Positions 18,148 through 29,909 of a stretch of 34,845 nucleotides of DNA are shown piece after piece. A program made the translations under genes and the position numbers. Position 1 is the first letter of the stretch. The number at the start of each line of letters is the position of its first letter. The DNA comes from Magnetovibrio sp. (GTDB lineage: Bacteria; Pseudomonadota; Alphaproteobacteria; Rhodospirillales; Magnetovibrionaceae), in contig JANQJR010000058.1 in the NCBI GenBank assembly GCA_028281525.1, positions 1 through 34,845 on the forward strand, read 5' to 3'. Under the pieces are notes generated by a model. The model was not told where the DNA came from and did no database searches. It saw nothing but the letters and a program-made list of their open reading frames with translations.

Positions 18148-19155
18148 ATGAAAGTTCTTGTCACCGGCAGCGCCGGCTTTATCGGCAACCGTGTCTCACA
18201 ACGCCTGTTGGAACGCGGCGATGAAGTGATCGGTCTCGACAATCTCAGCGACTACTACGACGTCCAACTTAAGAAAGACCGTCTTGCGCTCATCAAGGAC
18301 CATGAAAACTTCACCGAGGCGCGCTTCGACATGGCGGACCGTCAGTTGATGACGTCGCTGTTTGAAACTCACCGTCCTGACGGTGTGATCAATCTCGCCG
18401 CTCAGGCCGGGGTTCGTCACTCCTTGCTTAAGCCGCACGACTATGTGGACACCAATCTGGTGGGTTTCGTGAACATTCTGGAGGGGTGCCGCCAGACTCA
18501 TGTGGAGCACTTGGTCTTCGCTTCCTCGAGCTCCGTCTACGGCACCAATACCGACATGCCCTTCAGCGTTAACGATCCGGTCGATCACCCGATCAGCCTC
18601 TACGCGGCGTCCAAACGATCCAACGAGTTGATGGCGCACACCTATTCGCACTTGTTCGGATTCCCGTCCACGGGACTGCGTTTCTTCACCGTCTACGGCC
18701 CGTGGGGCCGCCCGGACATGGCCTTGTTTCTATTCACCAAGGCGATCTTGGCGGGCGAACCCATCGACGTCTTCAACAAGGGCGATATGCGCCGCTCATT
18801 CACCTACATCGACGATATCGTCGAAGGCGTAATTCGCGTTCTGGATACGCCGCCCCACGGCCCCACCGCTCAAGGTGACGGCCAGGGTCCGCCCAACAGC
18901 GAGACGGCCCCGTTTCGCGTGTTCAACATCGGTTCCGACGAGGCGGTCAGCCTGGGACGCTATATCGAAATCCTGGAACAAAACCTTGGCATCGAAGCGA
19001 AAAAGAACCTGCTGCCCATGCAACCAGGCGACGTCGCCGCCACTTGGGCGGACGTGGACGATCTCAAGACCATCGTTGGCTACCAGCCCATGACAACCGT
19101 CGAAGACGGCGTCAAACGTTTCGTCGAGTGGTACAAAGACTATTACGGCGCCTGA
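18148..19155 (+). CDS. NAD-dependent epimerase, probable UDP-glucuronate 4-epimerase
   Basis: This 335-residue extended short-chain dehydrogenase/reductase binds NAD through GSAGFIG (7-13). The catalytic Tyr and Lys are Y152 and K156 in YAASK, with the catalytic Ser in the ASSSSVYG segment. The regions LDNLSDYYDVQLKKDRL, AAQAGVRHSL and RFFTVYGPWGRPDMA are characteristic of the UDP-glucuronate 4-epimerase (CapI/LspL) branch, which makes UDP-galacturonate for cell-surface polysaccharide. The glycosyltransferase gene follows after 25 bases, consistent with joint use in polysaccharide synthesis. UDP-glucose 4-epimerase activity is the less likely alternative. Confidence 0.88.
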   Translation: MKVLVTGSAGFIGNRVSQRLLERGDEVIGLDNLSDYYDVQLKKDRLALIKDHENFTEARFDMADRQLMTSLFETHRPDGVINLAAQAGVRHSLLKPHDYVDTNLVGFVNILEGCRQTHVEHLVFASSSSVYGTNTDMPFSVNDPVDHPISLYAASKRSNELMAHTYSHLFGFPSTGLRFFTVYGPWGRPDMALFLFTKAILAGEPIDVFNKGDMRRSFTYIDDIVEGVIRVLDTPPHGPTAQGDGQGPPNSETAPFRVFNIGSDEAVSLGRYIEILEQNLGIEAKKNLLPMQPGDVAATWADVDDLKTIVGYQPMTTVEDGVKRFVEWYKDYYGA

Positions 19156-19180: not shown

Positions 19181-20308
19181 ATGCCAAAGCTTCTGTTCAC
19201 GGTAACGGAGGATTGGGCATTTTGTTCCCATCGCATTCCCACGGCCTTGGCGGCACAGGACGCCGGTTACGATGTGGTGGTAGCCGCGCGCATGCGAGAT
19301 CATCGGCAACAGATCGAAGATTTGGGCTTTCGCACAGTGCCTTGGGCGATCAAACGCGAAAGCCAGAACCCGTTTTCCGAAATCTCTGCATTACTCGACC
19401 TGATCCGCATTTACCGCACGGAGCGCCCAGACGTCACCTATCACGTCGCCATCAAAGCCATCATGTACGGCTCCATCGCGGCCAGGCTTTCCGGCGTCAA
19501 AGCATGCATCAACCTGTTTTCCGGCATGGGCGTGGTGTTCATTTCCAATACGCCCAAGTTTCGCCTGATCCGCGCCATGGTTACACCTGTATTGCGGTGG
19601 GCCCTCAAACCCGCCACGGCCCGGCTGCAAGTGCAAAACGCAGATGACAAAGCCGTGCTCAACGGTTTGGAAATTTCTACGCCGGATCGCACAGATCTGA
19701 TCCCCGGCTCGGGTCTCGATTTGGAAAATTTCACCGAAACGCCGGAGCCGGAAAACCAGGCGCCCACCGCCGTTTTGGTGGGGCGCATGCTGTGGGACAA
19801 GGGCATCGGCGAACTTGCACAGGCCGCCCAACGGCTTATGGATCGGAGCGTGAAACTACGCATCGTCCTGATCGGCGATCCCGACCCGGCCAATCCGGCC
19901 TCCATCCCCGAGGCGCAACTCAAGGCTTGGGCCGATGCGGGGCTGATGGAATGGTGGGGGCGACGCAGCGACATCGCCGACATCTACAAACAAAGTCACA
20001 TTGCGGTACTGCCGTCGTACCGTGAAGGCATGCCGCGCGCACTGCTGGAAGCTGCCGCCATCGGGCGTCCCCTGGTGGCCTTCGACGCGGTGGGCTGCCG
20101 CGATCTGGTGAAGGATGGCGAAAACGGCATTCTCGTCCCCTTTCAAGATGCGAACGCTCTGGCGAATGCTCTGGAAACCCTGGCCAATGATGCGGGTTTA
20201 CGCAAACGTCTCGGACACCAGGCACGCAGGGACGTCGAAGCCATCTACAGCGCCGATGCCATTCGCGCACAGATTCGCGACATTCTGACACGCTTCAAGC
20301 CCCAGTAA
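19181..20308 (+). CDS. Glycosyltransferase, GT4-like
   Basis: This 375-residue GT-B fold glycosyltransferase has an N-terminal acceptor domain (about 1-180, with an Asn/Lys-rich nucleotide-sugar independent half). The C-terminal Glycos_transf_1 domain (about 185-350) has VGRMLWDKGIGEL as the start of the donor domain and the E-x7-E-type element SYREGMPRALLEAAAIGRP, followed by GENGILVP. It probably adds a sugar to a lipid-linked oligosaccharide at the cytoplasmic side of the membrane. It is cotranscribed with the epimerase, with a GGAAGGAA site before the ATG. The exact sugar is unknown. Its stop directly abuts the first R-body regulon promoter. Confidence 0.88.
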   Translation: MPKLLFTVTEDWAFCSHRIPTALAAQDAGYDVVVAARMRDHRQQIEDLGFRTVPWAIKRESQNPFSEISALLDLIRIYRTERPDVTYHVAIKAIMYGSIAARLSGVKACINLFSGMGVVFISNTPKFRLIRAMVTPVLRWALKPATARLQVQNADDKAVLNGLEISTPDRTDLIPGSGLDLENFTETPEPENQAPTAVLVGRMLWDKGIGELAQAAQRLMDRSVKLRIVLIGDPDPANPASIPEAQLKAWADAGLMEWWGRRSDIADIYKQSHIAVLPSYREGMPRALLEAAAIGRPLVAFDAVGCRDLVKDGENGILVPFQDANALANALETLANDAGLRKRLGHQARRDVEAIYSADAIRAQIRDILTRFKPQ

Positions 20309-20336
20309 TTCACAATCTCCGCGCCCTCGCGTCATT
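20309..20336 (+). promoter_or_regulatory. Reb-type promoter 1 (plus-strand trio)
   Basis: TTCACAA (20309-20315), exactly 14 bases, then CGTCATT (20330-20336). The same bipartite element with the same spacing precedes seven other units in 22-29.6 kb. It begins at the base after the glycosyltransferase stop and lies 84 bases before the first small gene. Confidence 0.75.
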
Positions 20337-20420
20337 CGGATAGCGCACCGGTTTCAGGCGGTTCCTCCGCGGACCCGCGTGTGCGGCTACGCCCGTGGGG
20401 CCTTAAGGGGAGTGACAGAC

Positions 20421-20741
20421 ATGACAGACGACATCAACGCGGACAGCCAGGACGGCCAGCAGGTCAACAATCTGATTGAGGAAGCTTTTGCAGTTTCCAC
20501 GGATGCCGCCGTCGCCGAGGCCGAGGAAGGCAGCGCAGTGCAAAGCCTGACTCAATCCTTTGAAACCTACGTGCAGCAATATCAGGACACCTGGCAACAG
20601 ACGTGGCAAGCCTCCATAGAGGCCTTCGAGCAAGAGGTCCAAAAATGGCAAGACACCGTGGCCGCGGAAAAAATCGCTCAAAACCAGATGGCAAAACCCA
20701 AAGCAACCGCCAAGCCGAAGGCTGGAAAGGCCGAGAATTGA
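20421..20741 (+). CDS. Small acidic helical protein of the R-body regulon
   Basis: This 106-residue protein belongs to no family I recognise. Residues 1-40 are acidic. Residues 45-95 form an amphipathic, coiled-coil-like helix rich in Gln and Trp (YVQQYQDTWQQTWQASIEAF). The tail is Lys/Ala/Pro-rich (KPKATAKPKAGK). It has no signal peptide or membrane segment. I start at the ATG at 20421, which has AGGGGAG upstream. It is first of three tightly packed genes behind a Reb-type promoter. Its involvement in R-body assembly is inferred from that promoter and from proximity only. Confidence 0.7.
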   Translation: MTDDINADSQDGQQVNNLIEEAFAVSTDAAVAEAEEGSAVQSLTQSFETYVQQYQDTWQQTWQASIEAFEQEVQKWQDTVAAEKIAQNQMAKPKATAKPKAGKAEN

Positions 20742-20744
20742 GCC

Positions 20745-21059
20745 ATGACGGATGACACCACCAAGTCCAAGGGCTCAGCCGGTGCCCAAGATTCCAAAGG
20801 CGCCAAGAGCGGCCTGGACGATTTGGTGGCATCTGTCGTCGGGTCCATGCAGATGACCAGCGCTATCGAACAAGCCGTGCAAAAAAATTTGGAAAGCGCT
20901 TTGAGCGCAGCCGGCACGGCCACGGCGGACCTGATCAAAAACAATGTACAGAGCCCTGAACTGGCGCAGGAAAACCTGAAACTGCAAAAAGCTGTGATCG
21001 ACAAAACCATCGCCGCGATCAAAGCCTTGGGCCCGGATAGCCCGGACACATCGAAGTAA
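20745..21059 (+). CDS. Small helical protein of the R-body regulon
   Basis: This 104-residue protein of unknown function starts 3 bases after the preceding stop. A Ser/Lys/Gly-rich N-terminus (1-25) is followed by predicted helices: LDDLVASVVGSMQMTSAIEQ, then a Gln/Asn/Ala-rich stretch and ENLKLQKAVIDKTIAAIKAL. The Ala/Gln/Thr composition resembles that of RebB proteins, but I cannot align it to the RebB motif ITDAVTQxNVKV. It is cytoplasmic, judging from the lack of a signal peptide. It is second gene of the trio and probably translationally coupled to the first. Confidence 0.7.
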   Translation: MTDDTTKSKGSAGAQDSKGAKSGLDDLVASVVGSMQMTSAIEQAVQKNLESALSAAGTATADLIKNNVQSPELAQENLKLQKAVIDKTIAAIKALGPDSPDTSK

Positions 21060-21079
21060 CCATATTGGGAGACGCCGTC

Positions 21080-21856
21080 ATGAGCGACAATCAGTCCCCA
21101 CCTCGGAATACGCCGCCCATCGAAAATGGACCGCAAACGGCCATTCCGCAAACGGACATCCCACACATGGGCACGTCTCAAGCGAACGTGCCCAAACCGC
21201 AGATTCCCGACACGCAACAACCAGCCGCACAACCGCAACAACCCCAGGCGCAACAACCCCAGACGCAACCCCAACAGGGTGTTCAGTTGCCGCCGCTTCC
21301 TCCTGGCGTCACCCAGGACGCCATCAACGCCGCCATCCAGCAGGTGGAACAAACCGGCAAGACCGACGGAATTGCTCCGGAGGTCCTGGCTGCCGCCTGT
21401 GCCCAAATCGAGGCTCACGCCGCCGCTCAAGGCATAGACCTGCAAGCCCAGGGGGATGGAGCTCAAACGGGCCCCTCCAACTATGTCGAAGCCGCAGTGA
21501 TGGACAAGCAGGGCACCATGGACAACTTTGCGCAACAACGCGAGTCCATCCGCACTCAGGTCAACGATCAGCGCGAAGCCATGCAAAAGCCCTTTCAGGA
21601 CGCCCTGGCGAAAGCCGGTGACAAATCCGCGCCGGCCGCCGCCAGCATGGAGCCAGAACAGATGGCCGAGTTGGCGCGTGCAGTGCAGGATTTGGACCCC
21701 GATACTGTAGCACTGATCAATGCGCTCGGCTTCATGAGCACCAACCCGTCGATTTTGAACACCATCGTATGGATGGAAATCATCCGTGCGTTCCGCCGCT
21801 TGGTCGCACGCGAGGTTCATGCTCAAAGTCCGGACAGCCCCCCCGCACTGCATTAG
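21080..21856 (+). CDS. Pro/Gln-rich protein of the R-body regulon
   Basis: This 258-residue protein of unknown function starts at ATG 21080, eight bases after GGGAG. Residues 1-80 are a low-complexity Pro/Gln/Thr segment with runs of QQPQ. The rest is helical: TQDAINAAIQQVEQTGKTDG, then a central segment NYVEAAVMDKQGTMDNFAQQ, and a more hydrophobic C-terminal region, TVALINALGFMSTNPSILNT, followed by RAFRRLVAR. It is the third gene of the trio behind Reb-type promoter 1. The disordered N-terminus plus helical C-terminus suggests a scaffold or linker role. That is only a guess. Confidence 0.7.
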   Translation: MSDNQSPPRNTPPIENGPQTAIPQTDIPHMGTSQANVPKPQIPDTQQPAAQPQQPQAQQPQTQPQQGVQLPPLPPGVTQDAINAAIQQVEQTGKTDGIAPEVLAAACAQIEAHAAAQGIDLQAQGDGAQTGPSNYVEAAVMDKQGTMDNFAQQRESIRTQVNDQREAMQKPFQDALAKAGDKSAPAAASMEPEQMAELARAVQDLDPDTVALINALGFMSTNPSILNTIVWMEIIRAFRRLVAREVHAQSPDSPPALH

Positions 21857-22049
21857 GCCGTATCCCAGCCACAAACCAGCCCACCGTTCACGCCAAATTG
21901 GGCGTGCAGAGGCAATTTTCGTCAAAATTCTCGTTATTGGTGTGTTTTCTTCACGGAAGTGAAATCAAATTTACACATCTTGTAATTGTGCATTGATCGA
22001 TGATAGCCCTTCCGCCCAATATCTGCGCCAAACGACTTCGGAATTTGTT
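21857..22049 (+). other. AT-rich intergenic region between trio and sigma gene
   Basis: No gene is seen here. The sequence is clearly richer in A+T than the flanks. It holds a six-pair hairpin, CACGCC/GGCGTG (21889-21906), and a small AATTTT/AAAATT repeat soon after (21913-21928). Neither is a convincing terminator for the trio. Confidence 0.5.
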
Positions 22050-22077
22050 TTCACAGAAACATCCTTTGTTCGTCAAC
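22050..22077 (+). promoter_or_regulatory. Reb-type promoter 2 (sigma factor gene, likely autoregulatory)
   Basis: TTCACAG (22050-22056), exactly 14 bases, then CGTCAAC (22071-22077). It matches the element in front of the reb units, so the sigma gene is probably in its own regulon. The expected transcript would carry a leader of about 200 bases before ATG 22289, including a seven-pair GCTTTGG/CCAAAGC hairpin at 22098-22116. Confidence 0.75.
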
Positions 22078-22288
22078 ATTGTGCAGGATCACTTGCAGCT
22101 TTGGCAAAACCAAAGCGACACCTGAAAGACTACTCTTGATTGTTCAAAGCAGGGAGGACCGCGCCAGAATAAAGCAACCTGCACGTGCTTACTGCTTGCG
22201 CAACTCCTCAGCTGGGGCGAAGGATCGATTTGCGCGGAACGGCATAGGCGCGACAGGCACAAGCTGGAACACGGCGCGTTCAATCATT

Positions 22289-23185
22289 ATGGGGGTTTTC
22301 AAATTTCCCGGACAACCGGGTTCCGTCGGCAAAAATCCAAGTCCGATGCACGGTGGATCCCGCACACGCGGCGACACCGACGATCTCATCTCCGAGGTTC
22401 CGGGGCCAGGGGCCAAGCGCAAGTCCCGCAGTAGGAAACGCCTCTCCCCGGCGGCGGTGATTGCCCGGTCCCTGGCGCCGGACGCTGGTCATCTATCGCC
22501 TGCGGACATCATCGCCCGCTCGCTGGAGAGCGCTTTCGGCCGACCGGAACCGATCCGCGAAATGCGCCCACCGCGCCGCCCGTCGGCGCCACCCAAACCG
22601 CCGCAGCCCGCGCCGCGGCCGCCTTTTCCCAATCCACACCCCGTATCGCCCTCATCATCGCACATGGAGCCGTTCGCGGAGTTCTGGACGGTGTGGATGG
22701 AACACCACGACTACCTGTTCAAGCAAAGCCTACGCTTCATGGCCGGCAACATGGCCGATGCCGAAGACGCGCTCAGCCAGGCGATGCTCAAAGGCTCGCA
22801 GCACTTCGACAGCAACGTGATCCGAAACGAACGCGCCTGGCTGACGCGGTTGGTGCACAACGCCTGCATGGATCAACATCGCTCGCACAAGCGCCAGGCG
22901 CGCCTGAGCGAGGAGATCGACGGCGACGATCCCGAGCAAGCCCCTAACGTTACCCCCCAACCCGAACGCCAGCCGGACGAGGCCTTGCACATGCGCCAAC
23001 TCTTCGATGAGTTGGAACAGCAGCTCCTGGCCCTGCCGGTGTCCTTGCTGGAGCCTCTTTTGCTGCGCGTGGTGGAAGAAAAGTCCTACGACGAAATCGC
23101 CGGCAAGATGGGCCTGAGCAACTGCGCGGTGCGCAAACGCATTCAACTGGCCCGCGACCGGCTCAGGCAGGCGGGTGTGATATAG
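22289..23185 (+). CDS. ECF-like RNA polymerase sigma factor with N-terminal extension
   Basis: This protein has about 298 residues. Sigma-70 region 2 lies at about 128-205 (FWTVWMEHHDYLFKQSLRFM, then MADAEDALSQAM and the WLTRLVHNACMDQHRSHKR promoter-melting part). Region 4 lies at about 245-295 (LLEPLLLRVVEEKSYDEIAG, then the helix-turn-helix NCAVRKRIQLARDRLR). There is no region 3, as in ECF factors. Before region 2 is a ~125-residue Pro/Arg-rich extension with two 17-residue repeats (LSPAAVIARSL and LSPADIIARSL). The start is uncertain: ATG 22289 has a poor ribosome site, and ATG 22664 would give a typical 173-residue ECF factor. No anti-sigma gene is evident. It is the likely reader of the shared reb promoter element. 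Confidence 0.85.
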   Translation: MGVFKFPGQPGSVGKNPSPMHGGSRTRGDTDDLISEVPGPGAKRKSRSRKRLSPAAVIARSLAPDAGHLSPADIIARSLESAFGRPEPIREMRPPRRPSAPPKPPQPAPRPPFPNPHPVSPSSSHMEPFAEFWTVWMEHHDYLFKQSLRFMAGNMADAEDALSQAMLKGSQHFDSNVIRNERAWLTRLVHNACMDQHRSHKRQARLSEEIDGDDPEQAPNVTPQPERQPDEALHMRQLFDELEQQLLALPVSLLEPLLLRVVEEKSYDEIAGKMGLSNCAVRKRIQLARDRLRQAGVI

Positions 23186-23294
23186 TTTCCTGGGTTTTGG
23201 CGCAAGAAAGCAAATGCTTATGGTGCTTTGGGGGCCGTTTTATCGGGTTTTTTCTTGCCTCCAACGCATGAACGTCCATTCACCTGACCGACAC

Positions 23295-23852
23295 CTAAAG
23301 ACGGCCTGTTTTCTTCCTGATGAAATTCACAAAACCAATTAAATACGTAATTAGAACAACAAATAAAAAAACAGATACACTAGCTTCAGCACCCCTTTCA
23401 TGTATATTTTTCTTCACCATATAAGTATCTATAAATACATAATTTAAATGCTGATACAGAAGCACAGAAAGAACAACGATCAACGGAAGATGGAAGCCAG
23501 GAACAAAGCCAGATGGCTTGCTCATCTTTGCGCCTTTGTTCCATTTTCCTGTCAGAATGTGCGTACCCAGAATCTGGTTGGCGATTGTGGCGAACGCGTT
23601 GCGCACCGCCAACAGAGCCGGGTACGCAATACACCCCCAGGCGAAATACACCTCCCAAGGCGCCAGATCCCTATAGAGCAGTTGAAAAATTCCAATCCCG
23701 AAAACAATCCCATGTAGATGGGGGATAAACGTCAGGGGATGATGCACCTCATAGCCCGCAATCACATATGTCGTGTCGTTGACCAGATCGGTCACGATGG
23801 GGGCGCCTTGCTCAAGCGCGCGCTCTTTCACCTGTGTGGATTCCTCGTTCAT
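23295..23852 (-). CDS. Hypothetical four-helix membrane protein
   Basis: This is a protein of about 185 residues with four predicted membrane segments: around HGIVFGIGIFQLL, VYFAWGCIAYPALLAV, FHLPLIVVLSVLLY and SVFLFVVLITYLIGFV. The N-terminal tail is cytoplasmic-looking and acidic. No family is recognised. The frame is open to a GTG at 23969; I prefer ATG 23852, which has AAGG ten bases upstream, though an ATG at 23933 is also possible. The 3' third is AT-rich compared with the neighbours, suggesting foreign origin. It lies between the sigma gene and the reb array but has no Reb-type promoter and is isolated by the terminator at 24011-24039. Confidence 0.6.
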   Translation of the reverse strand: MNEESTQVKERALEQGAPIVTDLVNDTTYVIAGYEVHHPLTFIPHLHGIVFGIGIFQLLYRDLAPWEVYFAWGCIAYPALLAVRNAFATIANQILGTHILTGKWNKGAKMSKPSGFVPGFHLPLIVVLSVLLYQHLNYVFIDTYMVKKNIHERGAEASVSVFLFVVLITYLIGFVNFIRKKTGRL

Positions 23853-24010
23853 AACTCCAACACCTTCGGACCGGGGCATCACCATCCATTCCAAACCAAA
23901 CGGAAAAACATGTTTGCGCGCAAGTGAATTCATCGCCAGCCAGGCCAGCCATCCACTCAGCAATTTCACCCGCTATTGCATGAGAGCATACGTATTGGGC
24001 TGGCCGGAAT

Positions 24011-24039
24011 CAAAAAAAGACCGCCGGCTGGCGGTCTTA
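24011..24039 (-). terminator. Rho-independent terminator ending the reb array
   Basis: Stem AGACCGCC (24018-24025) pairs with GGCGGTCT (24030-24037) around a GGCT loop; on the minus strand it is followed by a run of seven to eight T. It lies about 45 bases after the stop of the last RebB-like gene. Confidence 0.9.
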
Positions 24040-24082
24040 GGTTTGTCGCGCGACGATTACGGGGACGTTGGCGCGATTAAAA

Positions 24083-24559
24083 TCAACCCTTCGAAGCCGG
24101 AAAGGACGTGGCGATCGTCGAGGCCGTGGTGCCGACGGTAGCCAGGTTGGTCGACGCGGCGATGACCATTTCCTGCAACGTGGCCAGCACCGGGGTGTAA
24201 ATCGGAATGTTGGACTGGTCTTCGAGCATCTTGGCGACGATCACACCTTGGGCGGTCAATGCCACGTTTTCGATGTTGCGTGAATAGTCCGTGGCGTCCT
24301 GCACAGCGAACGCGGCCGCCTGGGCGACCTTCTGATACGCCGTGGCCGCGCCCTGGGTGGCGGCGTTGTCCATCACGGCCGAGGTGCTCTGCTTCACCGC
24401 ATCGAGGATCTGCGCATTGACGCCGCCGGCGGAGCCGGACGCGCTTGCCGATGTGGTGGACGGCGTGGTCGCAGGTGTGGTGGATGGTGTGCCGGAAGAC
24501 GATGCCGGATCCGATTGGTTTTTTTTGTCGTCAGCTGGTGTCGGTTCTTGATCGCTCAT
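24083..24559 (-). CDS. Divergent RebB-family protein with Ser/Thr/Pro N-terminal extension
   Basis: This 158-residue protein has a low-complexity N-terminus (about 1-47, rich in Ser, Thr, Pro and Ala). A divergent copy of the RebB (R-body 'killing trait') domain follows. It keeps VNAQILDAVKQSTSAV where the other copies have VNxQITDAVTQxNVKV, then AYQKVAQAAAFAVQDATDYS. The C-terminus (LATLQEMVIAASTNLATVGT) is longer than in the others. It is last in the c-b-a unit behind promoter 25313-25340. The extension and divergence suggest a capping or anchoring role rather than bulk ribbon subunit. That is inference. Confidence 0.75.
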   Translation of the reverse strand: MSDQEPTPADDKKNQSDPASSSGTPSTTPATTPSTTSASASGSAGGVNAQILDAVKQSTSAVMDNAATQGAATAYQKVAQAAAFAVQDATDYSRNIENVALTAQGVIVAKMLEDQSNIPIYTPVLATLQEMVIAASTNLATVGTTASTIATSFPASKG

Positions 24560-24608
24560 ATCTTCACTGTGGAGCCGTTCGCGGCTCCTGCTCCCCTAGA
24601 CAGAAGGT

Positions 24609-24857
24609 TTAACTGCTCTTCTCCGACATGCCGCCGTTGGCCGCGTCGAAGATCATGCGCACCCCGCTGGACGTCACGGCATTGCCGATCTGTTGCAAGC
24701 CGCCTTGCGCCTGCATGGCGTTTTCCATCGCAAGCGAGATGGAGTGCGCCATGGTTTGATAGACCATAGCCATGCTCTGAGCCGGGGCCTCGGCGACCAC
24801 CTTGACGTTCGTCTGGGTGACGGCATCGGTGATCTGGGCGTTCACATTGTCAGCCAT
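24609..24857 (-). CDS. RebB-family R-body protein (short form, 82 aa)
   Basis: This 82-residue protein carries the RebB signature VNAQITDAVTQTNVKVVAEA, then MVYQTMAHSISLAMENAMQAQ and QIGNAVTSSGV. It lacks the IYSVDTMAG...TSKIAQSD tail of the ~110-residue forms. R-body subunits of this family polymerise into a ribbon that rolls up in the cytoplasm and can extend abruptly. It sits 49 bases upstream of the divergent copy and 71 bases after the 107-residue copy, without its own Reb-type promoter, so it is probably cotranscribed with both. Confidence 0.88.
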   Translation of the reverse strand: MADNVNAQITDAVTQTNVKVVAEAPAQSMAMVYQTMAHSISLAMENAMQAQGGLQQIGNAVTSSGVRMIFDAANGGMSEKSS

Positions 24858-24928
24858 ATCTTGAACCTAATGCTGTGCGTTTTCGTCCAGGCAGCGCATC
24901 TCGCACCGCCGCTCAAGTCAATCCGTTG

Positions 24929-25252
24929 TTATTTCTTCGACGCGGCCAAGGCCATCAGCAGCGCCATCATCAAATCGGGTGTGTCGCTTTGCGCGATTTT
25001 CGACGTCGCCGCCGCACCGGCCATGGTCGATGCGCCATAAAGCTGCATCACACCTTGGTTGGTCGCCGCTTGGCCACTGATCGCGCCGTGCATTTGAGTT
25101 TGCGTGGCATTCTCGTACAACACGCTCAACGAATGCGCCGCGGTCTGATAGACGTTGCCCATGGCTTGGGCCGGCGCGACCCCGAGGACGGCCACGTTGC
25201 TTTGCGTAACCGCGTCGGTAATCATCCCGTTGACTGGTGTCGGTAGTGCCAT
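24929..25252 (-). CDS. RebB-family R-body protein (107 aa)
   Basis: This is a 107-residue RebB-type structural protein. It begins MALPTPVNGMITDAVTQSNV and continues with VYQTAAHSLSVLYENATQTQ, GQAATNQGVMQLYG and MAGAAATSKIAQSD, aligning along its full length with the three copies at 27-28.5 kb. The start at 25252 is chosen because all full-length copies begin with MA(L/M)PTPVNG and an AGGAAAAG site precedes it. It is first gene of a three-gene unit driven by the Reb-type element at 25313-25340. Confidence 0.92.
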   Translation of the reverse strand: MALPTPVNGMITDAVTQSNVAVLGVAPAQAMGNVYQTAAHSLSVLYENATQTQMHGAISGQAATNQGVMQLYGASTMAGAAATSKIAQSDTPDLMMALLMALAASKK

Positions 25253-25272
25253 CGTTTCTTTTCCTTCCTCTC

Positions 25273-25291
25273 CCCACCGTGTGCCGGTGGG
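25273..25291 (-). other. Leader hairpin of the 107-aa RebB gene
   Basis: CCCACCG and CGGTGGG (seven pairs, five-base loop) lie between the Reb-type promoter and the start codon. Comparable hairpins occur in the leaders at 26898-26914, 27446-27475 and 27992-28024. Confidence 0.45.
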
Positions 25292-25312
25292 CAAACGGTC
25301 GATGTTCTCTTC

Positions 25313-25340
25313 AATGACGGGTCCGCTCACAGGTTGTGAA
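25313..25340 (-). promoter_or_regulatory. Reb-type promoter 3 (three-gene reb unit)
   Basis: On the minus strand: TTCACAA (25340-25334), exactly 14 bases, CGTCATT (25319-25313). It lies 61 bases before the ATG at 25252 and just after the stop of the preceding rebB gene. Confidence 0.75.
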
Positions 25341-25359
25341 GGCCGAACCGTTTAATTCC

Positions 25360-25596
25360 TCAGCCGCTCGAAGACGTGCCTGCTTTGGTGATCATCGCCA
25401 TCAGCGCCGCGGTGGCGGAGTTGCCGATCTGCTGCATGCCGCCCTGGGTCTGGGTGGCGTTTTCCATCGCCAGGCCCATGGCATGAGCCATCGCCTGCGA
25501 TGATACCCCCAGCGCACCCGCCGGGCTTTCGCCCAAAACCTTGACGTTGGTTTGGGTGACGGCATCGGTGATCTGTGAATGTACGAGGTCCGCCAT
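25360..25596 (-). CDS. RebB-family R-body protein (short form, 78 aa)
   Basis: This 78-residue short RebB protein contains VHSQITDAVTQTNVKVLGES, then SQAMAHAMGLAMENATQTQG and QIGNSATAALMAMI. It is similar in length to the 82-residue copy, and both lack the C-terminal tail of the long forms, so two size classes of subunit exist. A GGAAAGG site precedes the ATG. It lies 26 bases after the repeat-containing accessory gene, without its own Reb-type promoter, so it is read from 26927-26954. Confidence 0.88.
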   Translation of the reverse strand: MADLVHSQITDAVTQTNVKVLGESPAGALGVSSQAMAHAMGLAMENATQTQGGMQQIGNSATAALMAMITKAGTSSSG

Positions 25597-25622
25597 GGTT
25601 CAGCCTTTCCAATTCATCGTGC

Positions 25623-26234
25623 TTAAGTCACCGCCAAGGTTGGCTTGGATGCCTCCTTGGACGCCTCGACGATATCCGACAGATGTCCGCGTAAAAGCTC
25701 CATCAGCTCCGAAATGTGTTTGTCCACGTCCGCACCGTCCAGGCCCGTTTGCGTAGACTTGAGACTTAAATTCGACGTGGTCGTGTCACCGCCCGCAGGC
25801 GAGGTGATTTTTTCGTTCAGCAGGTCCTTGATCGCGTCGAGGTTGGGGACCGCACCCACTTCCGTTTCGGTGTTTTTTTCGTTCAGCAGGCTCTTGATCG
25901 CGTCGAGGTTGGGAACCGCGCCCACTTCCGTTTCGCCACCTGCTTTGGCGCCGCCCCCGCCTTTGCGGGGGAAATCCACGGCAACGGGGGCATCGTAACC
26001 GCCATAGCCACGGCAATACCCTTGTTCGCCTGTGGCCAGAATCTGCGTCAGCGCGCGGGCCAGAGATTGCATTTGCAGAGGATGGGCCATCTCGAAGTCG
26101 CGGACCATGTTCGCCGACAGTAGGGATTGCGTGTTGACCATGTTGAACATGGCCTCCAAGGTCGCCAGACCAACGCCATGGCCCATCACCAGGCTATTGG
26201 TGTCCGCAAATTTTCGATCCAATCGTTTTGACAT
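25623..26234 (-). CDS. R-body locus accessory protein with tandem 22-residue repeat
   Basis: This is a 203-residue protein of unknown function. The N-terminal helical region (about 15-70) contains LATLEAMFNMVNTQSLLSAN. It faintly resembles, in hydrophobic and Asn/Gln pattern, the C-terminal region of the accessory protein encoded just upstream. A Gly/Lys-rich linker (about 90-100) leads to two near-perfect 22-residue repeats starting TEVGAVPNLDAIK(S/D)LLNEK. A Thr/Ser linker and a final amphipathic helix (about 165-200) follow. It is the middle gene of the f-e-d unit, between the other accessory gene and a short rebB. A role in assembly or control of the R-body is inferred from position only. 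Confidence 0.7.
   Translation of the reverse strand: MSKRLDRKFADTNSLVMGHGVGLATLEAMFNMVNTQSLLSANMVRDFEMAHPLQMQSLARALTQILATGEQGYCRGYGGYDAPVAVDFPRKGGGGAKAGGETEVGAVPNLDAIKSLLNEKNTETEVGAVPNLDAIKDLLNEKITSPAGGDTTTSNLSLKSTQTGLDGADVDKHISELMELLRGHLSDIVEASKEASKPTLAVT
25808..25937 (-). repeat. Tandem 66-bp direct repeat inside the accessory gene
   Basis: Two head-to-tail copies of a 66-base unit differ at only a few positions and encode 22 residues each (GAVPNLDAIKSLLNEK and GAVPNLDAIKDLLNEK cores). The register is in frame, so copy-number change would alter protein length without disrupting it. Confidence 0.85.
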
Positions 26235-26271
26235 GGTCGGCCTCCCCAGCCTGCTCTCTGTCCTTTGCGCC

Positions 26272-26850
26272 TCAATCGGGCTCGTAGGACTCGTTCAGGC
26301 TCAAAAGCTGTTTGACACAGGCGCTGGTGGTACACAGCCCCACTTGGTCGAGTTGGCGCTGCATCTGCGTGGCGTTCACCAGGACAGAACCCTGCGCCGT
26401 TGAATTTGCGAGCATAGACCCCAGCGCGGCGAACGCCGGGCCGGAGCCCAGCACCATGCCCACGCCCCGGGTCATGTCATCGAATTTGTCCGGGTCCCAA
26501 TCGTTGGCGCTCATGTCGTCGAAAACACGCGACAACATATCGAGATAATCGCCACTGCCCAGCGGACCTTGGGGCACAGCCGCCTCCGCAGATGATGCAC
26601 TTGCAGAAGATGCGCTGGCGTTCATGCCCACGCGGCGCGCCAGGAACGCCTGCTTTGCTTTCGCCGCGGCCTCGGCGGCGGCTTGGGCTTCGGCTTCCAA
26701 TTCGCTTAACGCCTGCAGTTCCGCCAACTCGTCGAAATCATCGTGATCGTTGGTTTCGGGAGCGCTGCTGGCGGCCTTCTGCGTGGAGGCCTTGGTCTTG
26801 GACGCTCCGCTCTTTGCGCCTGACGCCCGTGTTCGCGTTGTTTTCGCCAT
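26272..26850 (-). CDS. R-body locus accessory protein with Lys/Ser/Ala-rich N-terminus
   Basis: This is a 192-residue protein of unknown function. Residues 1-30 are basic and rich in Lys, Ser, Thr and Ala, like histone H1 tails. Residues 35-75 form an acidic, Ala-rich coiled coil. The C-terminal half (about 95-190) is helical with PAFAALGSMLANSTAQGSVL and ends in a segment with two Cys (GLCTTSACVKQLLSL). It has AGGAG before ATG 26850; the frame also has a TTG one codon upstream. It is first in a unit with the repeat-containing protein and a short rebB, behind a Reb-type promoter. Its function is unknown. Confidence 0.7.
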   Translation of the reverse strand: MAKTTRTRASGAKSGASKTKASTQKAASSAPETNDHDDFDELAELQALSELEAEAQAAAEAAAKAKQAFLARRVGMNASASSASASSAEAAVPQGPLGSGDYLDMLSRVFDDMSANDWDPDKFDDMTRGVGMVLGSGPAFAALGSMLANSTAQGSVLVNATQMQRQLDQVGLCTTSACVKQLLSLNESYEPD

Positions 26851-26897
26851 CAATCGTCTCCTGCTTCACCAAAGGTGACAACTTGGTCTTGATGAGC

Positions 26898-26914
26898 GCC
26901 GGGCATTCACCGGC
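26898..26914 (-). other. Leader hairpin of the accessory unit
   Basis: GCCGG and CCGGC (five pairs, seven-base loop) lie between the promoter at 26927-26954 and ATG 26850. Confidence 0.35.
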
Positions 26915-26926
26915 CTCTCCCCTCCA

Positions 26927-26954
26927 TCTGACGTTTGAGGACCCGGTTCGTGAA
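26927..26954 (-). promoter_or_regulatory. Reb-type promoter 4 (accessory gene unit)
   Basis: On the minus strand: TTCACGA (26954-26948), exactly 14 bases, CGTCAGA (26933-26927). It lies 77 bases before ATG 26850. It differs from the consensus at one base of each half, with spacing unchanged. Confidence 0.65.
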
Positions 26955-26987
26955 CAAAGGATTTGCAACTCCCTCGTCCGCGGAACC

Positions 26988-27039
26988 GGACCGCCGCCGG
27001 ATCGCCCTATTTCCAGGGCGTTGTCGCCGGCAGCGGTCC
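26988..27039 (-). other. Large nested hairpin between rebB copy and accessory unit
   Basis: Thirteen-base arms with one mismatch (26988-27000 against 27027-27039) enclose an inner six-pair hairpin, CGCCCT/AGGGCG (27003-27020). It follows the stop of the 110-residue RebB gene and precedes promoter 4. There is no U-run, so it may act as a 3' stabiliser or factor-assisted terminator. Confidence 0.5.
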
Positions 27040-27076
27040 GTGGCCTGACAAGCCATCAGGTCCGCTCATGCCGGAC

Positions 27077-27409
27077 TTAGCTGACGCCGGACGTGCTGGC
27101 GCGCAGCGCAGCCATCAGAGCGAGCATGTTGTCCGGAACGTCGGACTGGGAAATCTTCGACGTTGCCACCGCACCGGCCATGGTGTCGACGCTGTAGATC
27201 TGGATCACGCCCTGGTTGGTCGCGGCCTGGGCGGCGATGCCCAACTGCTGCTGCGAGCTGGTGGCGTTTTCAAACAGGATGCCGGTGGAATGGGACATGG
27301 ACTGATACAGTGCGCCCATCGCCATGGCGGGCGCATCGCCCAGGACTTTGACGTTGGCCTGGGTCACGGCGTCGGTAATCTGACCGTTCACGGGAGTCGG
27401 TAATGCCAT
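27077..27409 (-). CDS. RebB-family R-body structural protein (110 aa, copy 3 of 3)
   Basis: This 110-residue protein is identical to the copy at 27627-27959 in 103 of 110 positions by my reading. It begins MALPTPVNGQITDAVTQANV and continues KVLGDAPAMAMGALYQSMSH, GIAAQAATNQGVIQIYSV and MAGAVATSKISQSD. Composition is Ala/Gln/Ser/Thr-rich with no Cys, signal peptide or membrane helix, as expected for cytoplasmic R-body ribbon subunits. I use ATG 27409 with GAGGAGAG before it; five more codons upstream are open. It has its own Reb-type promoter and leader hairpin. Confidence 0.93.
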   Translation of the reverse strand: MALPTPVNGQITDAVTQANVKVLGDAPAMAMGALYQSMSHSTGILFENATSSQQQLGIAAQAATNQGVIQIYSVDTMAGAVATSKISQSDVPDNMLALMAALRASTSGVS

Positions 27410-27445
27410 CTGATCTCTCCTCACTTAACTGATGACTTGTCTGGT

Positions 27446-27475
27446 GATGCATCCCGTGTATGAAAAAGATGCATC
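27446..27475 (-). other. Leader inverted repeat of rebB copy 3
   Basis: Two copies of the self-complementary GATGCATC (27446-27453 and 27468-27475) separated by 14 bases can pair as a stem in the leader between the promoter and ATG 27409. Confidence 0.4.
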
Positions 27476-27487
27476 GTGCTTCTCTTG

Positions 27488-27515
27488 TTAGACGACGGCC
27501 TAAGGATTTTGTGAC
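27488..27515 (-). promoter_or_regulatory. Reb-type promoter 5 (rebB copy 3)
   Basis: On the minus strand: GTCACAA (27515-27509), exactly 14 bases, CGTCTAA (27494-27488). It lies 79 bases before ATG 27409. Confidence 0.75.
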
Positions 27516-27571
27516 TGCGCGTCGTGAGTTTTTTTCTCTTTTTTTGAAAGCCTTAGCGCCAAACGCAACAA

Positions 27572-27600
27572 ACCCGTCCGCCCCTTGGGGCAAGACGGGT
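27572..27600 (-). terminator. Probable terminator after rebB copy 2
   Basis: Arms ACCCGTC (27572-27578) and GACGGGT (27594-27600) with an inner GCCCC/GGGGC stem lie 27 bases after the stop of the gene at 27627. On the minus strand they are followed by a T-rich but interrupted tract (TTTGTTGCGTTT). Confidence 0.6.
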
Positions 27601-27626
27601 CTGTCGACGTTCAAGCGGGACGGCGG

Positions 27627-27959
27627 TTAGCTGACGCCGCTGGTCGATGCGCGCAGAGCGCTCAACAGAGCCAACATGTTGTTGGGCACGTCGGACTGGG
27701 AAATCTTCGACGTCGCGGCGGCGCCCGCCATGGTATCGACGCTGTAGATTTGGATCACTCCCTGGTTGGTCGCGGCCTGAGCGGCGATCGCAAGCTGCTG
27801 CTGGGAGCTGGTGGCGTTCTCATAGAGAATGCCGGTGGAATGGGACAACGACTGGTACAAAGCACCCATCGCCATCGCCGGTGCGTCACCAAGAACCTTT
27901 ACGTTGGCCTGGGTGACGGCGTCCGTGATTTGGCCGTTCACCGGAGTGGGTAGAGCCAT
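27627..27959 (-). CDS. RebB-family R-body structural protein (110 aa, copy 2 of 3)
   Basis: This 110-residue RebB protein differs from copy 3 at seven positions (for example SL for SM, LYEN for LFEN, GAA for GAV, PNN for PDN). The full motif set is present: QITDAVTQANVKVLGDAPAM, ATNQGVIQIYSVDTMAG and TSKISQSDVP. The two genes are exactly 550 bases apart, showing a tandem duplication that included the control region. It has its own Reb-type promoter, a leader hairpin and a downstream terminator, so it is probably monocistronic. It is expected to be a major ribbon subunit together with its neighbours. Confidence 0.93.
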   Translation of the reverse strand: MALPTPVNGQITDAVTQANVKVLGDAPAMAMGALYQSLSHSTGILYENATSSQQQLAIAAQAATNQGVIQIYSVDTMAGAAATSKISQSDVPNNMLALLSALRASTSGVS

Positions 27960-27991
27960 TTTCGATCTCCTTCATCGAGTTGGACTGCCAG

Positions 27992-28024
27992 GCACCACGG
28001 CCTCATGTTTTGGCCTTGCGGTGC
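27992..28024 (-). other. Leader hairpin of rebB copy 2
   Basis: GCACCACGGCC (27992-28002) pairs imperfectly with GGCCTTGCGGTGC (28012-28024), within the leader between promoter 6 and ATG 27959. Confidence 0.4.
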
Positions 28025-28038
28025 ACCTCTCTCACGCT

Positions 28039-28066
28039 ATTGACGTTCGATGCGGGCAGTTGTGAT
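28039..28066 (-). promoter_or_regulatory. Reb-type promoter 6 (rebB copy 2)
   Basis: On the minus strand: ATCACAA (28066-28060), exactly 14 bases, CGTCAAT (28045-28039). It lies 80 bases before ATG 27959. Confidence 0.75.
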
Positions 28067-28105
28067 TACGTTCAAATTTTTTTCTACGAAAGTGTTGAAG
28101 TCGTC

Positions 28106-28133
28106 TCCGGTCCGTCCCCGACATCGGACCGGA
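28106..28133 (-). other. Hairpin after rebB copy 1
   Basis: Perfect nine-base arms TCCGGTCCG (28106-28114) and CGGACCGGA (28125-28133) start 17 bases after the stop of the 108-residue rebB gene. There is no immediate U-run; it may be a 3' stabilising structure or an inefficient terminator. Confidence 0.5.
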
Positions 28134-28149
28134 TCAACCCCGTGCCGGT

Positions 28150-28476
28150 TTAACCCGAAGTCGTTGCACGCAACGCGGTCAACAGCGACAACATGTTGTC
28201 CGGCACATCGGACTGAGCGATCTTCGAGGTCGCAACCGCTGCCGACATCGGCGGCACGGAATAGATCTGGATCACGCCCTGGTTGGTGGAGGCTTGCGCG
28301 GCAATCCCCAACTGCTGCTGGGAGCTAACCGCGTTTTCAAACAAGATGCCAGACGAGTGGGAAAGCGACTGGAAAATCGCACCCATCGCCATAGCAGGCG
28401 CATCACCCAAAACCTTGACGTTAGCCTGGGTGACGGAGTCCGTGATCATTCCGTTCACGGGAGTCGGCATGGCCAT
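28150..28476 (-). CDS. RebB-family R-body structural protein (108 aa, copy 1 of 3)
   Basis: This 108-residue RebB protein begins MAMPTPVNGMITDSVTQANV, with GAIFQSLSHSSGILFENAVS, AAQASTNQGVIQIYSVPPMS and TSKIAQSDVP. It is more diverged from copies 2 and 3 than they are from each other. GAAGGAGA lies just before the ATG. It is the first reb gene of the minus-strand array, after the OmpA-type lipoprotein gene, from which it is separated by a strong terminator and its own Reb-type promoter. Confidence 0.93.
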   Translation of the reverse strand: MAMPTPVNGMITDSVTQANVKVLGDAPAMAMGAIFQSLSHSSGILFENAVSSQQQLGIAAQASTNQGVIQIYSVPPMSAAVATSKIAQSDVPDNMLSLLTALRATTSG

Positions 28477-28522
28477 ATGATGTCTCCTTCAATGAAATTT
28501 CCGTTCCTCTCCCCTACAGCAA

Positions 28523-28550
28523 GTTGACGGGCCGTGGCCGCATTTGTGAC
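28523..28550 (-). promoter_or_regulatory. Reb-type promoter 7 (rebB copy 1)
   Basis: On the minus strand: GTCACAA (28550-28544), exactly 14 bases, CGTCAAC (28529-28523). It lies 47 bases before ATG 28476, just downstream of the lipoprotein gene terminator. Confidence 0.75.
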
Positions 28551-28560
28551 TACACCGCAC

Positions 28561-28587
28561 AAAAAAAGAGAGGGCCGAAGCCCTCCC
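28561..28587 (-). terminator. Rho-independent terminator of the OmpA-type lipoprotein gene
   Basis: A GAGGGC/GCCCTC stem (28570-28575 and 28580-28585) with a TTCG tetraloop on the minus strand is followed by TCTCTTTTTTT. It lies about 28 bases after the stop at 28615. Confidence 0.92.
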
Positions 28588-28614
28588 TTTCCCGATTGAC
28601 AAGATACGGTCCGC

Positions 28615-29454
28615 TTATTTTTCAAACACCACTTCAACGCGGCGGTTCATGCGTTCCTTGACGCCATCGTCGGTGGCGACCTGCGGACTGGTTTCACCGG
28701 CATGCGATGTAGCGGTTTCCAGCGCACCTTTGCTGTGGGTCATGAGCGATTGAGCAACCGCGTTCACACGCGCCAGCGACAGTGTCATATTGTAGCCGTC
28801 AGTGCCGGACCGGTCAGCATGACCGATCAGCACCGCGCGCGTGGCGCCCGCGGCCTTGGCAACCTGCACCGCACGTTCGATCAACGCTTCCACCGCACCG
28901 GTCACATCGGCGCTGTCATGGGCGAAATAGACAATCAACGGAGCCGGCATACCGCCCATGGGCATCGCCATGGGCTTATCGCCCTGACAATCCTGAATGG
29001 CCTTCATGTATTCCCCACGGGTCCAGGCGATATGGTCGTCCTGGTGGCCTTCTTCCGCTTGCTCCATCCAGTGTTCGAACCAGGTCTGCGCACGGGCGCA
29101 AGCGTCCGGCGTGACTTGCGGGGCATTGGTCCTTAAGGCCGCCGCCAGATCGCCATAGGCGGAAGCGATAGTCTCCACATCAACTTTCAAGTGACGCCGT
29201 GCGGGTTCCTGGACAGCCACGGCTTCACCCATGGCGGCCATTTTCGCACGCGAATTGAAGAAACCGACAGAGCCCCAGTTGCCTTCGCCGACTTCGAATT
29301 GAGCACGCTCGACATAGCGTTTATGGAGCGCCTGGGTAAAAGCGTCCCCCTTTGCCTCCATCATCGCCACTGTGTCGACCTCATAGGTATTCGCACATGC
29401 GGCCAGCATAACCGTCGCGGCGCACACGGCGCCCGTTTTCAAGACCGTTTTCAT
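28615..29454 (-). CDS. OmpA family lipoprotein in the R-body regulon
   Basis: This protein has 279 residues from ATG 29454 (AGGAG upstream). The N-terminus is a lipoprotein signal peptide with lipobox L17-A-A-C20 and Ala at +2, favouring the outer membrane. A helical middle region (about 25-155) contains several Trp, Cys and His residues. The C-terminal OmpA-like peptidoglycan-binding domain (about 170-279) carries the family segment IGHADRSGTDGYNMTLSLAR, with the peptidoglycan-contacting Asp and Arg (MNRRVEVVF at the end). It has its own terminator and a diverged Reb-type promoter. It might adapt the envelope for R-body function; that is speculation. Confidence 0.9.
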   Translation of the reverse strand: MKTVLKTGAVCAATVMLAACANTYEVDTVAMMEAKGDAFTQALHKRYVERAQFEVGEGNWGSVGFFNSRAKMAAMGEAVAVQEPARRHLKVDVETIASAYGDLAAALRTNAPQVTPDACARAQTWFEHWMEQAEEGHQDDHIAWTRGEYMKAIQDCQGDKPMAMPMGGMPAPLIVYFAHDSADVTGAVEALIERAVQVAKAAGATRAVLIGHADRSGTDGYNMTLSLARVNAVAQSLMTHSKGALETATSHAGETSPQVATDDGVKERMNRRVEVVFEK

Positions 29455-29567
29455 TGAGGTTCTCCTTCCCAAATCCTAAACTCCGATAGCTCAACCTTGT
29501 CTGGCTTTTCATGCGCTCACTCATAGCATTAAGTGTGGCCATGTTCTTCCCTACATGTGAAGAACGC

Positions 29568-29595
29568 TATGACGCTTCAATGACACAAATGTGTT
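29568..29595 (-). promoter_or_regulatory. Reb-type promoter 8, diverged (lipoprotein gene)
   Basis: On the minus strand: AACACAT (29595-29589), exactly 14 bases, CGTCATA (29574-29568). The CACA and CGTCA cores and the spacing agree with the other seven; the flanks are weaker. It lies 114 bases before ATG 29454. A GTTCTTC/GAAGAAC inverted repeat (29543-29565) follows immediately downstream of the -10 half and could be an operator. Confidence 0.55.
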
Positions 29596-29813
29596 AGACC
29601 TGGGGAAATGTCGGGGCAGGAATTAAAAACCTGCAACGTTCGCAGGAGGAAATGAGAGCATATCGCCAGAGGTCGAAAACCTCCTCAAGCCAGTCAAAAC
29701 GTTACCTTGGATCATGAGGTCTTGCTCTACCTTACCATGTGCGAAAATTTCGCGTGCACGCCGATATCATACTGATATTTTTTGTTTTTTGACGCTGGCA
29801 CATATAGACATAT
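29596..29813. other. Intergenic region between lipoprotein and RTX genes
   Basis: No convincing gene is present. The stretch is AT-rich and includes a 21-codon plus-strand frame (29652-29717) with AGGAGG two bases before its ATG, encoding a very basic peptide. A T-rich tract (29779-29790) and a short CATATAG direct repeat lie near the RTX end. Confidence 0.5.
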
Positions 29814-29846
29814 AGAAAGCCATCAAGTGTAACTTGATGGCTTTCT
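29814..29846 (-). terminator. Probable terminator of the RTX gene
   Basis: A perfect 15-base stem (AGAAAGCCATCAAGT at 29814-29828 and its complement at 29832-29846) has a three-base loop, 63 bases after the RTX stop. On the minus strand the U-rich part (CTTTCTATAT) is short and partly inside the stem; on the plus strand TTTC follows, so it may work in both directions. Confidence 0.6.
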
Positions 29847-29909
29847 TTTCAGCTAACAGTACAGTCCTCAAGCCATGGCAATACCGTTTCCATGTGCGTG
29901 AGTTGGCCG

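Follow-up and report, generated by a model that had tools for sequence, protein, structure and literature searches.

R-bodies are coiled protein ribbons, and the locus examined here raises the question of how the genes for such a structure, spread over both strands and several units, might be transcribed together. The window, i.e. the whole 34,845-nt stretch of DNA from Magnetovibrio sp. that was analysed (contig JANQJR010000058.1), holds seven RebB-family genes, genes for two conserved, uncharacterised proteins of 158 and 203 aa, an OmpA-domain gene, a trio of plus-strand genes and one extracytoplasmic function (ECF) sigma factor gene. All seven PF11747 matches of the genome lie on this contig, and it is the presence of several RebB-family genes that marks an R-body (reb) cluster; the labels rebA to rebG are our own and imply no orthology to the Caedibacter genes. 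Comparison of sequences suggests that a two-part element before these genes, with a predicted -35 box TCACAA and a predicted -10 box CGTC 14-15 bases apart, is the promoter of the ECF sigma factor encoded in the locus and dedicated to R-body production, a reading to which we assign a probability of roughly 0.87.

A recurrent two-part element precedes the genes of the reb locus

A first-pass annotation of the window had listed eight copies of the element on the two strands, with invariant CAC and CGTC. All eight were found at the positions and on the strands given there (Table 1), each with 14 bases between its 7-base halves, and CAC and CGTC are indeed common to all of them. By itself, the minimal pair CAC-N16-CGTC was rejected as a motif, being not enriched in the window (11 copies versus 7.95 expected; 11 reached by 16 of 100 shuffles). 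The wider core TCAC[AG]-N15-CGTC occurred 7 times versus 1.02 expected, a count reached by none of 100 shuffles, and all seven matches are sites of the annotation, the eighth site (29595, AACACAT) being deviant. The same core emerged when all pairs of 4-mers at gaps of 12-20 were counted over 15 upstream regions of the cluster, independently of the annotated motif: TCAC-N16-CGTC ranked top with 7 of 15 regions, tied with its one-base shift CACA-N15-CGTC, and the maximum in 10 mononucleotide shuffles was 3-4 regions. A concentration near the reb genes was also seen in a scan of the whole genome (3.58 Mb), in which 4 of the 6 perfect matches to KTCACRA-N14-CGTCA fell within the 9.3-kb stretch of the locus. 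Counted from the base after CGTC, the elements lie 48-115 nt before the start codons and 213 nt before that of the sigma gene, close to the 47-114 and 211 nt originally claimed; for trio gene 1 the start was taken as ATG 20421 (86 nt from the element), the alternative GTG 20412 giving 77 nt.

A two-part operator for a transcription factor, rather than a -35/-10 promoter, could have a similar appearance. Factor sites do occur before reb genes, because in Azorhizobium the reb operon, which like the window locus appears to be under dedicated transcriptional control, depends on a Crp-type activator, RebR, and a repressor, PraR, with binding sites different from the element (PMC5527310, which like most sources cited below was available in part); the words "sigma factor" do not occur in the main text of that paper. 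Against this account, the element is directional and non-palindromic, with an ECF-like CGTC half 15-16 bases from TCACA and at the promoter-to-start distances given above, whereas the RebR consensus is the palindrome GT(A/G)(A/C)C-N4-G(T/G)(T/C)AC. Furthermore, no second regulator was recognised among the 19 open reading frames (ORFs) scanned. We therefore consider an operator very unlikely.

The element is conserved in related genomes

A sigma ortholog was found in 6 of the 18 genomes of the family, that of the window included, within a cluster that is essentially colinear to the contig limits, and two named congeners, Magnetovibrio sp. NORP328 and M. blakemorei MV-1, carry the locus. All six genomes also have reb genes; G014, a genome of the same genus that is 100% complete, has neither. 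One additional genome of the family, G009, bears reb genes beside a divergent sigma gene. When upstream regions were compared among the six genomes, the element was present in 37 of the 37 examinable orthologous places (trio 6/6, sigma gene 6/6, each of five reb units 5/5). Since the orthologous boxes were located by pattern, the identity of the boxes is by construction, and the evidence for conservation is that no orthologous place lacks the pattern. The trio element of G013 is located on another contig, L121, where the gene behind it matches trio gene 1 (E 1e-23). A tblastn search of L044 did not recover trio gene 1 itself. A gap of k=15 gave the most TCAC[AG]-Nk-CGTC matches in the window and likewise in 4 of the 5 relative loci; in L044, a locus that ends at the contig end, there was one match at k=15 and two at k=16.

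The annotated regulon, which comprised the sigma gene, the trio, all reb units and the OmpA-type lipoprotein gene, thus stands for the trio, the sigma gene and the five reb units, but less well for the OmpA-type gene, whose weak site is partly conserved. It reads TTCACAT-N14-CGTAAAC in L040 and L043 and has no good match in L042, and an OmpA-type gene was not found in L041 or L044. Within the array, no separate site precedes rebD, rebF, rebG or the 203-aa gene.

The copies could in principle be chance matches, or the element could have spread as reb genes were duplicated along with the DNA before them, for these genes are paralogous and duplicated (two extra copies in G015, for example). This is extremely unlikely, as the same element precedes non-homologous genes, namely the trio, the sigma gene and the unlinked families described below, and as spacers and flanks differ among the copies. 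Between genomes, spacer identity is 27-39%, except at rebB (69%), and flank identity is 29-48% over the 22 bases upstream and 30-69% over the 45 bases downstream.

The element accompanies an R-body-type sigma gene in other reb clusters

A search with the sigma factor uncovered clusters in Vineibacter, a Rhodospirillaceae metagenome-assembled genome (MAG), a Xanthobacteraceae MAG and the gammaproteobacterium Methylobacter, in each of which reb genes adjoin the sigma gene and the element precedes both. A fifth distant match, in a Flavobacteriales MAG, lacked both a reb gene and the element. When genomes were sampled for RebB, it was found in 15 of 385 from the class and 11 of 398 from the phylum. 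Within 200 bp upstream of 123 reb genes from 19 sigma-bearing loci, many of these genes not being first in their unit, there were 50 matches at k=15 or 16 versus 5 at 15 other spacings combined.

Of the loci compared, which are related by descent, those that have an R-body-type ECF sigma gene carry the element before reb genes in 19 of 20 cases and those without one in 1 of 13; the lone miss among the 20 is L044, whose reb cluster is cut at the contig end. Loci were counted as lacking the sigma gene when the best E-value of a whole-genome profile search was no better than 3e-17, five intact R-body-type genes scoring 7e-63 or lower. L065 (G129) was placed with the sigma-bearing loci despite a sigma gene that is divided between two frames and scores 6e-8, and G045 was likewise so counted with its sigma gene ~17 kb from its reb genes. 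The table of co-occurrence omits L059 (sigma-like, no reb), L082 (no reb by profile) and G466 (RebB below cut-off, with stops), and one genome contributes two loci, L077 and L078. As a separate observation, the divergent reb clusters L045 (G009) and L065, each with a short sigma gene (206 aa in L045), have the element before a reb gene.

Six of 12 named plasmid records were taken into a further comparison. In Ruegeria pomeroyi, with Crp, sigma and reb genes, TCACGA occurs three times at k=15, in every case ~60 bp ahead of an annotated gene; two of these genes encode RebB. Two Burkholderia records have one element before the first RebB gene. In Azospirillum, Eleftheria and Bealeia, with no sigma gene in the stretch read, no element was found before reb genes on their strand.

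The sigma factor and its own leader

The protein encoded by the sigma gene matched Pfam Sigma70_r2 and Sigma70_r4_2 above cut-off, and the best PDB relatives of its profile are the ECF factors SigW, SigH and SigE. Of the sigma-70 core, ECF sigma factors contain little beyond regions 2 and 4, and by its predicted domains and PDB relatives the locus protein is one of them. The claim that such a gene lies inside the locus and carries the element itself thus holds, with a site in 6/6 genomes of the family, as would be seen at an autogenous promoter, which is common but not universal among ECF sigma factors.

The protein ends a few residues past region 4 without a C-terminal domain, and a structure model of low confidence (mean predicted local distance difference test, pLDDT, 60) has no further domain there and places two short helices in a disordered N-terminal stretch. 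This N-terminal extension (~residues 1-126; 22289-22660) contains two copies of the motif [ST]P[AV]x(V/I/L)(I/L)A(R/Q)(S/A). The paired motif occurs in all six family genomes (L040-L044 included), in Vineibacter and in Methylobacter (L055, L058), and its pattern was unmatched in nine other loci scanned. It may be a docking or control segment, and the extension is a candidate control element of the sigma factor. No anti-sigma gene was recognised by Pfam among the 19 ORFs scanned around the sigma gene. In iron-type FecI-FecR systems, a FecR anti-sigma gene and a TonB-dependent receptor gene adjoin the sigma gene; neither Pfam domain was found in these 19 ORFs.

With a fixed-gap matrix, the self-activation site of the sigma gene had appeared to be non-conserved, a view that was dropped after alignment of the leaders revealed one extra base. 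The gap is 15 bases in all five relatives, i.e. 5/6 genomes, and 14 in the window. The fixed 14-base spacing originally proposed therefore applies to all eight window copies but not to this site in the relatives, and the gap of the element is to be given as 14-15 bases. Across the wider sample, the 600 bp before the sigma gene contain the element in 15 of 22 cases, versus 3 matches at all 15 other spacings together. In the leader, a ribosome-site-like GGGAGG (window 22152-22157; GAGGAGG in L041) stands 105-146 nt before the sigma ATG in 6/6 genomes (window, L040-L044), and no ribosome-site-like sequence was found in the 15 bases before this ATG in the six genomes. This might reflect a leader peptide, coupling or an RNA switch.

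Unlinked genes stand behind the same element

The first-pass annotation had named regulon members in the locus. Its trio, sigma and reb members stand, but shared unlinked genes carry the element too. In the six sigma-bearing family genomes, TCACAA-N(14,15)-CGTCW occurs 88 times (58 outside the reb locus and trio) versus 14 times reversed; in G014, there are 8 matches versus 4 reversed, a small excess. Outside the locus, the six genomes have 35 places with TCACAA-N14-CGTCW, 23 of which precede genes common to several genomes (E up to 1e-3), or 24 when one weaker assignment is added (family C of G016, E 0.007). None of the five such places read in G014 precedes a shared gene. The tally was made by hand, with the overlapping sites C66:11995/12005 taken as one place and the C24 site of G013 counted with the trio; the downstream gene was picked among plausible reading frames, and the E-values come from a small sequence set.

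For family A (MAMDVV..., 83-94 aa), each of the six genomes has a site; G011 has two, one followed by a remnant and the other by a copy ~66% identical to the protein of the window genome. A profile search of 29 genomes recovered the family in the six sigma-bearing ones and in no other (L131 575-856 on the plus strand, L088, L098, L125, L129 and L118), with more than one copy in three genomes. The member in the window genome matched no Pfam family, and a PDB search with the family yielded nothing useful. Family C, of low complexity, also has a site in all six genomes, its members being weakly similar and that of G016 least so. The smaller families are a proline-rich protein of 449-471 aa (three genomes), an immunoglobulin (Ig)-like protein (three), a 64-68-aa protein beginning MPCYIVN or MTCYVAN (three, one with TCACAG) and two more families in two genomes each. 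Spacer identity between members is 19-33% in families B to G and 54% in family A. In addition, a singleton gene for a jacalin-type lectin in the window genome (contig C8; L050 1346-1798, minus strand) lies behind the near-match TTCACAG-N14-CGTCATC.

Two individual sites required separate treatment. C66:131945 was rejected as the promoter of the Ig-like gene of the window genome, as it points away from this gene, for which no site on the correct strand was found. C46:22654 (L048), which falls outside the 35 places because its box reads TCACAG, precedes a gene for a 58-aa protein resembling a 61-aa protein behind an unlinked site of G284 (L155; 50% over 36 aa); given this similarity, the idea that it is a chance site was dropped, and the gene is possibly a target. 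Both small proteins stand behind a TCACA-N15-CGTC site, and their genomes belong to two families.

G284, G722 and G725, genomes of another family, have 22, 18 and 18 matches versus 5, 4 and 5 reversed, and two genomes of the same order without RebB have 1 versus 1 and 3 versus 2. Among 18 unlinked N14 places in G284, G722 and G725, seven precede genes common among the three (a lipoprotein in 3/3 and two families in 2/3), and one precedes a gene similar to a target in the window genome. These targets are weaker evidence because their downstream flanks are 69-80% conserved and, in one family, the ATG follows the element by just 7 nt. The profile search for the MAMDVV family gave no match in G284, G722 or G725.

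Known systems and the proposed mechanism

The element resembles the promoter of ECF41 sigma factors, TGTCACA-n16-CGTC with a gap of 16 +/- 1 (PMC3426412), and the window genome contains further weak ECF matches, so that a different ECF factor, e.g. an ECF41-like one, might read it, the sigma gene of the locus being merely a target. The two promoters differ in that ECF41 has a fixed G before TCAC, whereas T, A or G stands there over 33 counted sites. ECF41 factors also have a large C-terminal extension and COE targets (carboxymuconolactone decarboxylase, oxidoreductase, epimerase), unlike the window sigma factor, which stops just past region 4 and has reb genes and uncharacterised proteins as neighbours; a sugar-epimerase-type gene two genes before the trio (18148-19155) has no strong element upstream in a matrix scan. 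Moreover, across lineages the element goes along with the R-body-type sigma gene (19/20 versus 1/13 loci) and shows little excess in the sigma-less G014, and an autogenous site at 15 of 22 sigma genes is expected of the promoter's own reader. Another reader is thus unlikely, and the data support the reading of the element as an ECF promoter recognised by the sigma factor of the locus.

On this promoter reading, the active sigma factor would transcribe its own gene in a positive feedback, the plus-strand trio, the nine-gene minus-strand reb array from five separate promoters, probably the OmpA-type lipoprotein gene, and an unlinked set of mostly orphan genes. We infer that it is this sigma factor that reads these promoters, with activation as the effect, and that the unlinked genes have their role in the R-body programme.

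Several observations weigh against this reading. The ECF41 promoter is near-identical to the element, and the window genome holds other ECF genes (the two further weak profile matches). No site was found in the 600 bp before seven of the 22 sigma genes, including those of all four genomes of family f45, L065, Ruegeria and Burkholderia pyrrocinia. The site of the OmpA-type gene is poor and partly conserved, one of the two extra reb copies of G015 has no site, a reb gene of L069 (G264), a locus lacking a clear R-body-type sigma gene, is preceded by a site, and the Burkholderia loci have many matches at other spacings too. The excess of matches over G014 is non-significant (Fisher's test, p ~0.1). 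The co-occurrence counts are not independent because the loci share descent and the sigma profile was retrained on loci that it scored, and their p-values are therefore merely indicative.

Control of reb genes by a sigma factor has been described before. In Pseudomonas aeruginosa PA14, the sigma factor FecI2 is required for the reb promoter (PMC8322103), its gene lies beside the reb genes as in the window, and expression data point to a wider regulon (PMC8322103, PMC4362757). PA14 also needs the transcription factor RcgA, for which no counterpart was recognised in the scanned ORFs of the window locus; PA14 was compared by its published description. A 2013 survey reports that Group 2 reb clusters frequently hold a sigma gene, with possible reb regulation suggested, and gives a synteny with a putative sigma factor, HP2.3, and a cyclic-nucleotide-type regulator, HP2.4 (PMC3583457); the word "promoter" does not occur in it. 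The window locus is like Group 2 in the tie between sigma and reb genes, HP2.1-HP2.4 being compared by description, and unlike it in having no Crp/Fnr-type Pfam domain in the scanned ORFs and a sigma factor with the ~126-residue N-terminal extension. In the alphaproteobacterium Labrenzia alexandrii DFL-11, an ECF sigma gene flanks the reb cluster, again as in the window, and reb regulation was proposed, the accessible text presenting adjacency but no promoter or regulon (PMC3764935). A 2026 survey of reb genes mentions sigma genes but does not contain the word "promoter" (PMC13430693). In the available parts of the literature, with the published FecI2 logo (PMC4362757) outside the comparison, we found neither this promoter for reb genes nor these unlinked targets. 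What is new here is the promoter anatomy, its breadth across lineages and the unlinked targets.

A promoter code that marks structural genes, switch and unlinked genes would make the regulon predictable in uncultured genomes, and sigma control of R-bodies would extend past Pseudomonas. More tentatively, and with considerable doubt, we propose that one R-body sigma family and one promoter code (TCAC[AG]A, 14-15 bases, CGTC) run across Alpha-, Gamma- and probably Betaproteobacteria, and that the unlinked, fast-changing genes (MAMDVV, MPCYIVN/MTCYVAN, jacalin-type lectin, Ig-like and proline-rich) encode R-body accessory or delivered proteins. The 2013 survey described the killing partners of R-bodies as yet-unidentified (PMC3583457), and the code yields a short list of conserved orphan proteins as candidate partners. 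If the unlinked genes do encode such proteins, the long-missing R-body payload could be read from promoters.

Features of the locus and neighbouring genes

Table 1. Predicted elements and genes of the reb locus (coordinates in the window; 5/5 for an element refers to the genomes having this stretch)
Feature	Position	Strand	Remarks
Element TTCACAA-N14-CGTCATT, predicted promoter of the trio	20309..20336	+	Orthologous place in 6/6 genomes
Trio gene 1, 106 aa	20421..20741	+	No known family; ATG, AGGGGAG upstream
Trio gene 2, 104 aa	20745..21059	+	No Pfam family above cut-off
Trio gene 3, 258 aa	21080..21856	+	Pro/Gln-rich; no known family
Element TTCACAG-N14-CGTCAAC before sigma gene	22050..22077	+	Putative self-activation
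ECF sigma factor, 298 aa	22289..23185	+	N-terminal extension, then sigma regions 2 and 4
Terminator-like hairpin after last reb unit	24017..24038	-	Consensus match alone; 12 such matches vs 10.6 expected
rebG, 158 aa, ends rebE unit	24083..24559	-	No Pfam family above cut-off; kept in relatives
rebF, RebB family	24609..24857	-	PF11747
rebE, RebB family, heads unit E-F-G	24929..25252	-	PF11747
Element TTCACAA-N14-CGTCATT before rebE	25313..25340	-	5/5 genomes
rebD, RebB family, without own element	25360..25596	-	PF11747
203-aa protein	25623..26234	-	No Pfam family; kept in relatives
192-aa protein, divergent RebB domain, heads its unit	26272..26850	-	PF11747, E 4e-6
Element TTCACGA-N14-CGTCAGA	26927..26954	-	5/5 genomes
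rebC, RebB family	27077..27409	-	PF11747
Element GTCACAA-N14-CGTCTAA	27488..27515	-	5/5 genomes
rebB, RebB family	27627..27959	-	PF11747
Element ATCACAA-N14-CGTCAAT	28039..28066	-	5/5 genomes
rebA, RebB family	28150..28476	-	PF11747
Element GTCACAA-N14-CGTCAAC	28523..28550	-	5/5 genomes
OmpA-domain lipoprotein-like protein, weakest predicted regulon member	28615..29454	-	PF00691
Element AACACAT-N14-CGTCATA	29568..29595	-	Deviant -35 half

A stretch resembling trio gene 2 lies among the reb genes of Methylobacter (L058; 35% identity over 65 aa). No RNA family was found by Rfam within 19500-30000. Between the sigma and reb genes lies a gene for a 224-aa protein (23295-23969, minus strand) that is hydrophobic by eye and had no tblastn match in the loci of the five relatives. 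On the other side, with its upstream region at or beyond the contig end, a gene for a 1641-aa protein with RTX calcium-binding repeats (29910-34835, minus strand) adjoins the OmpA-type gene.

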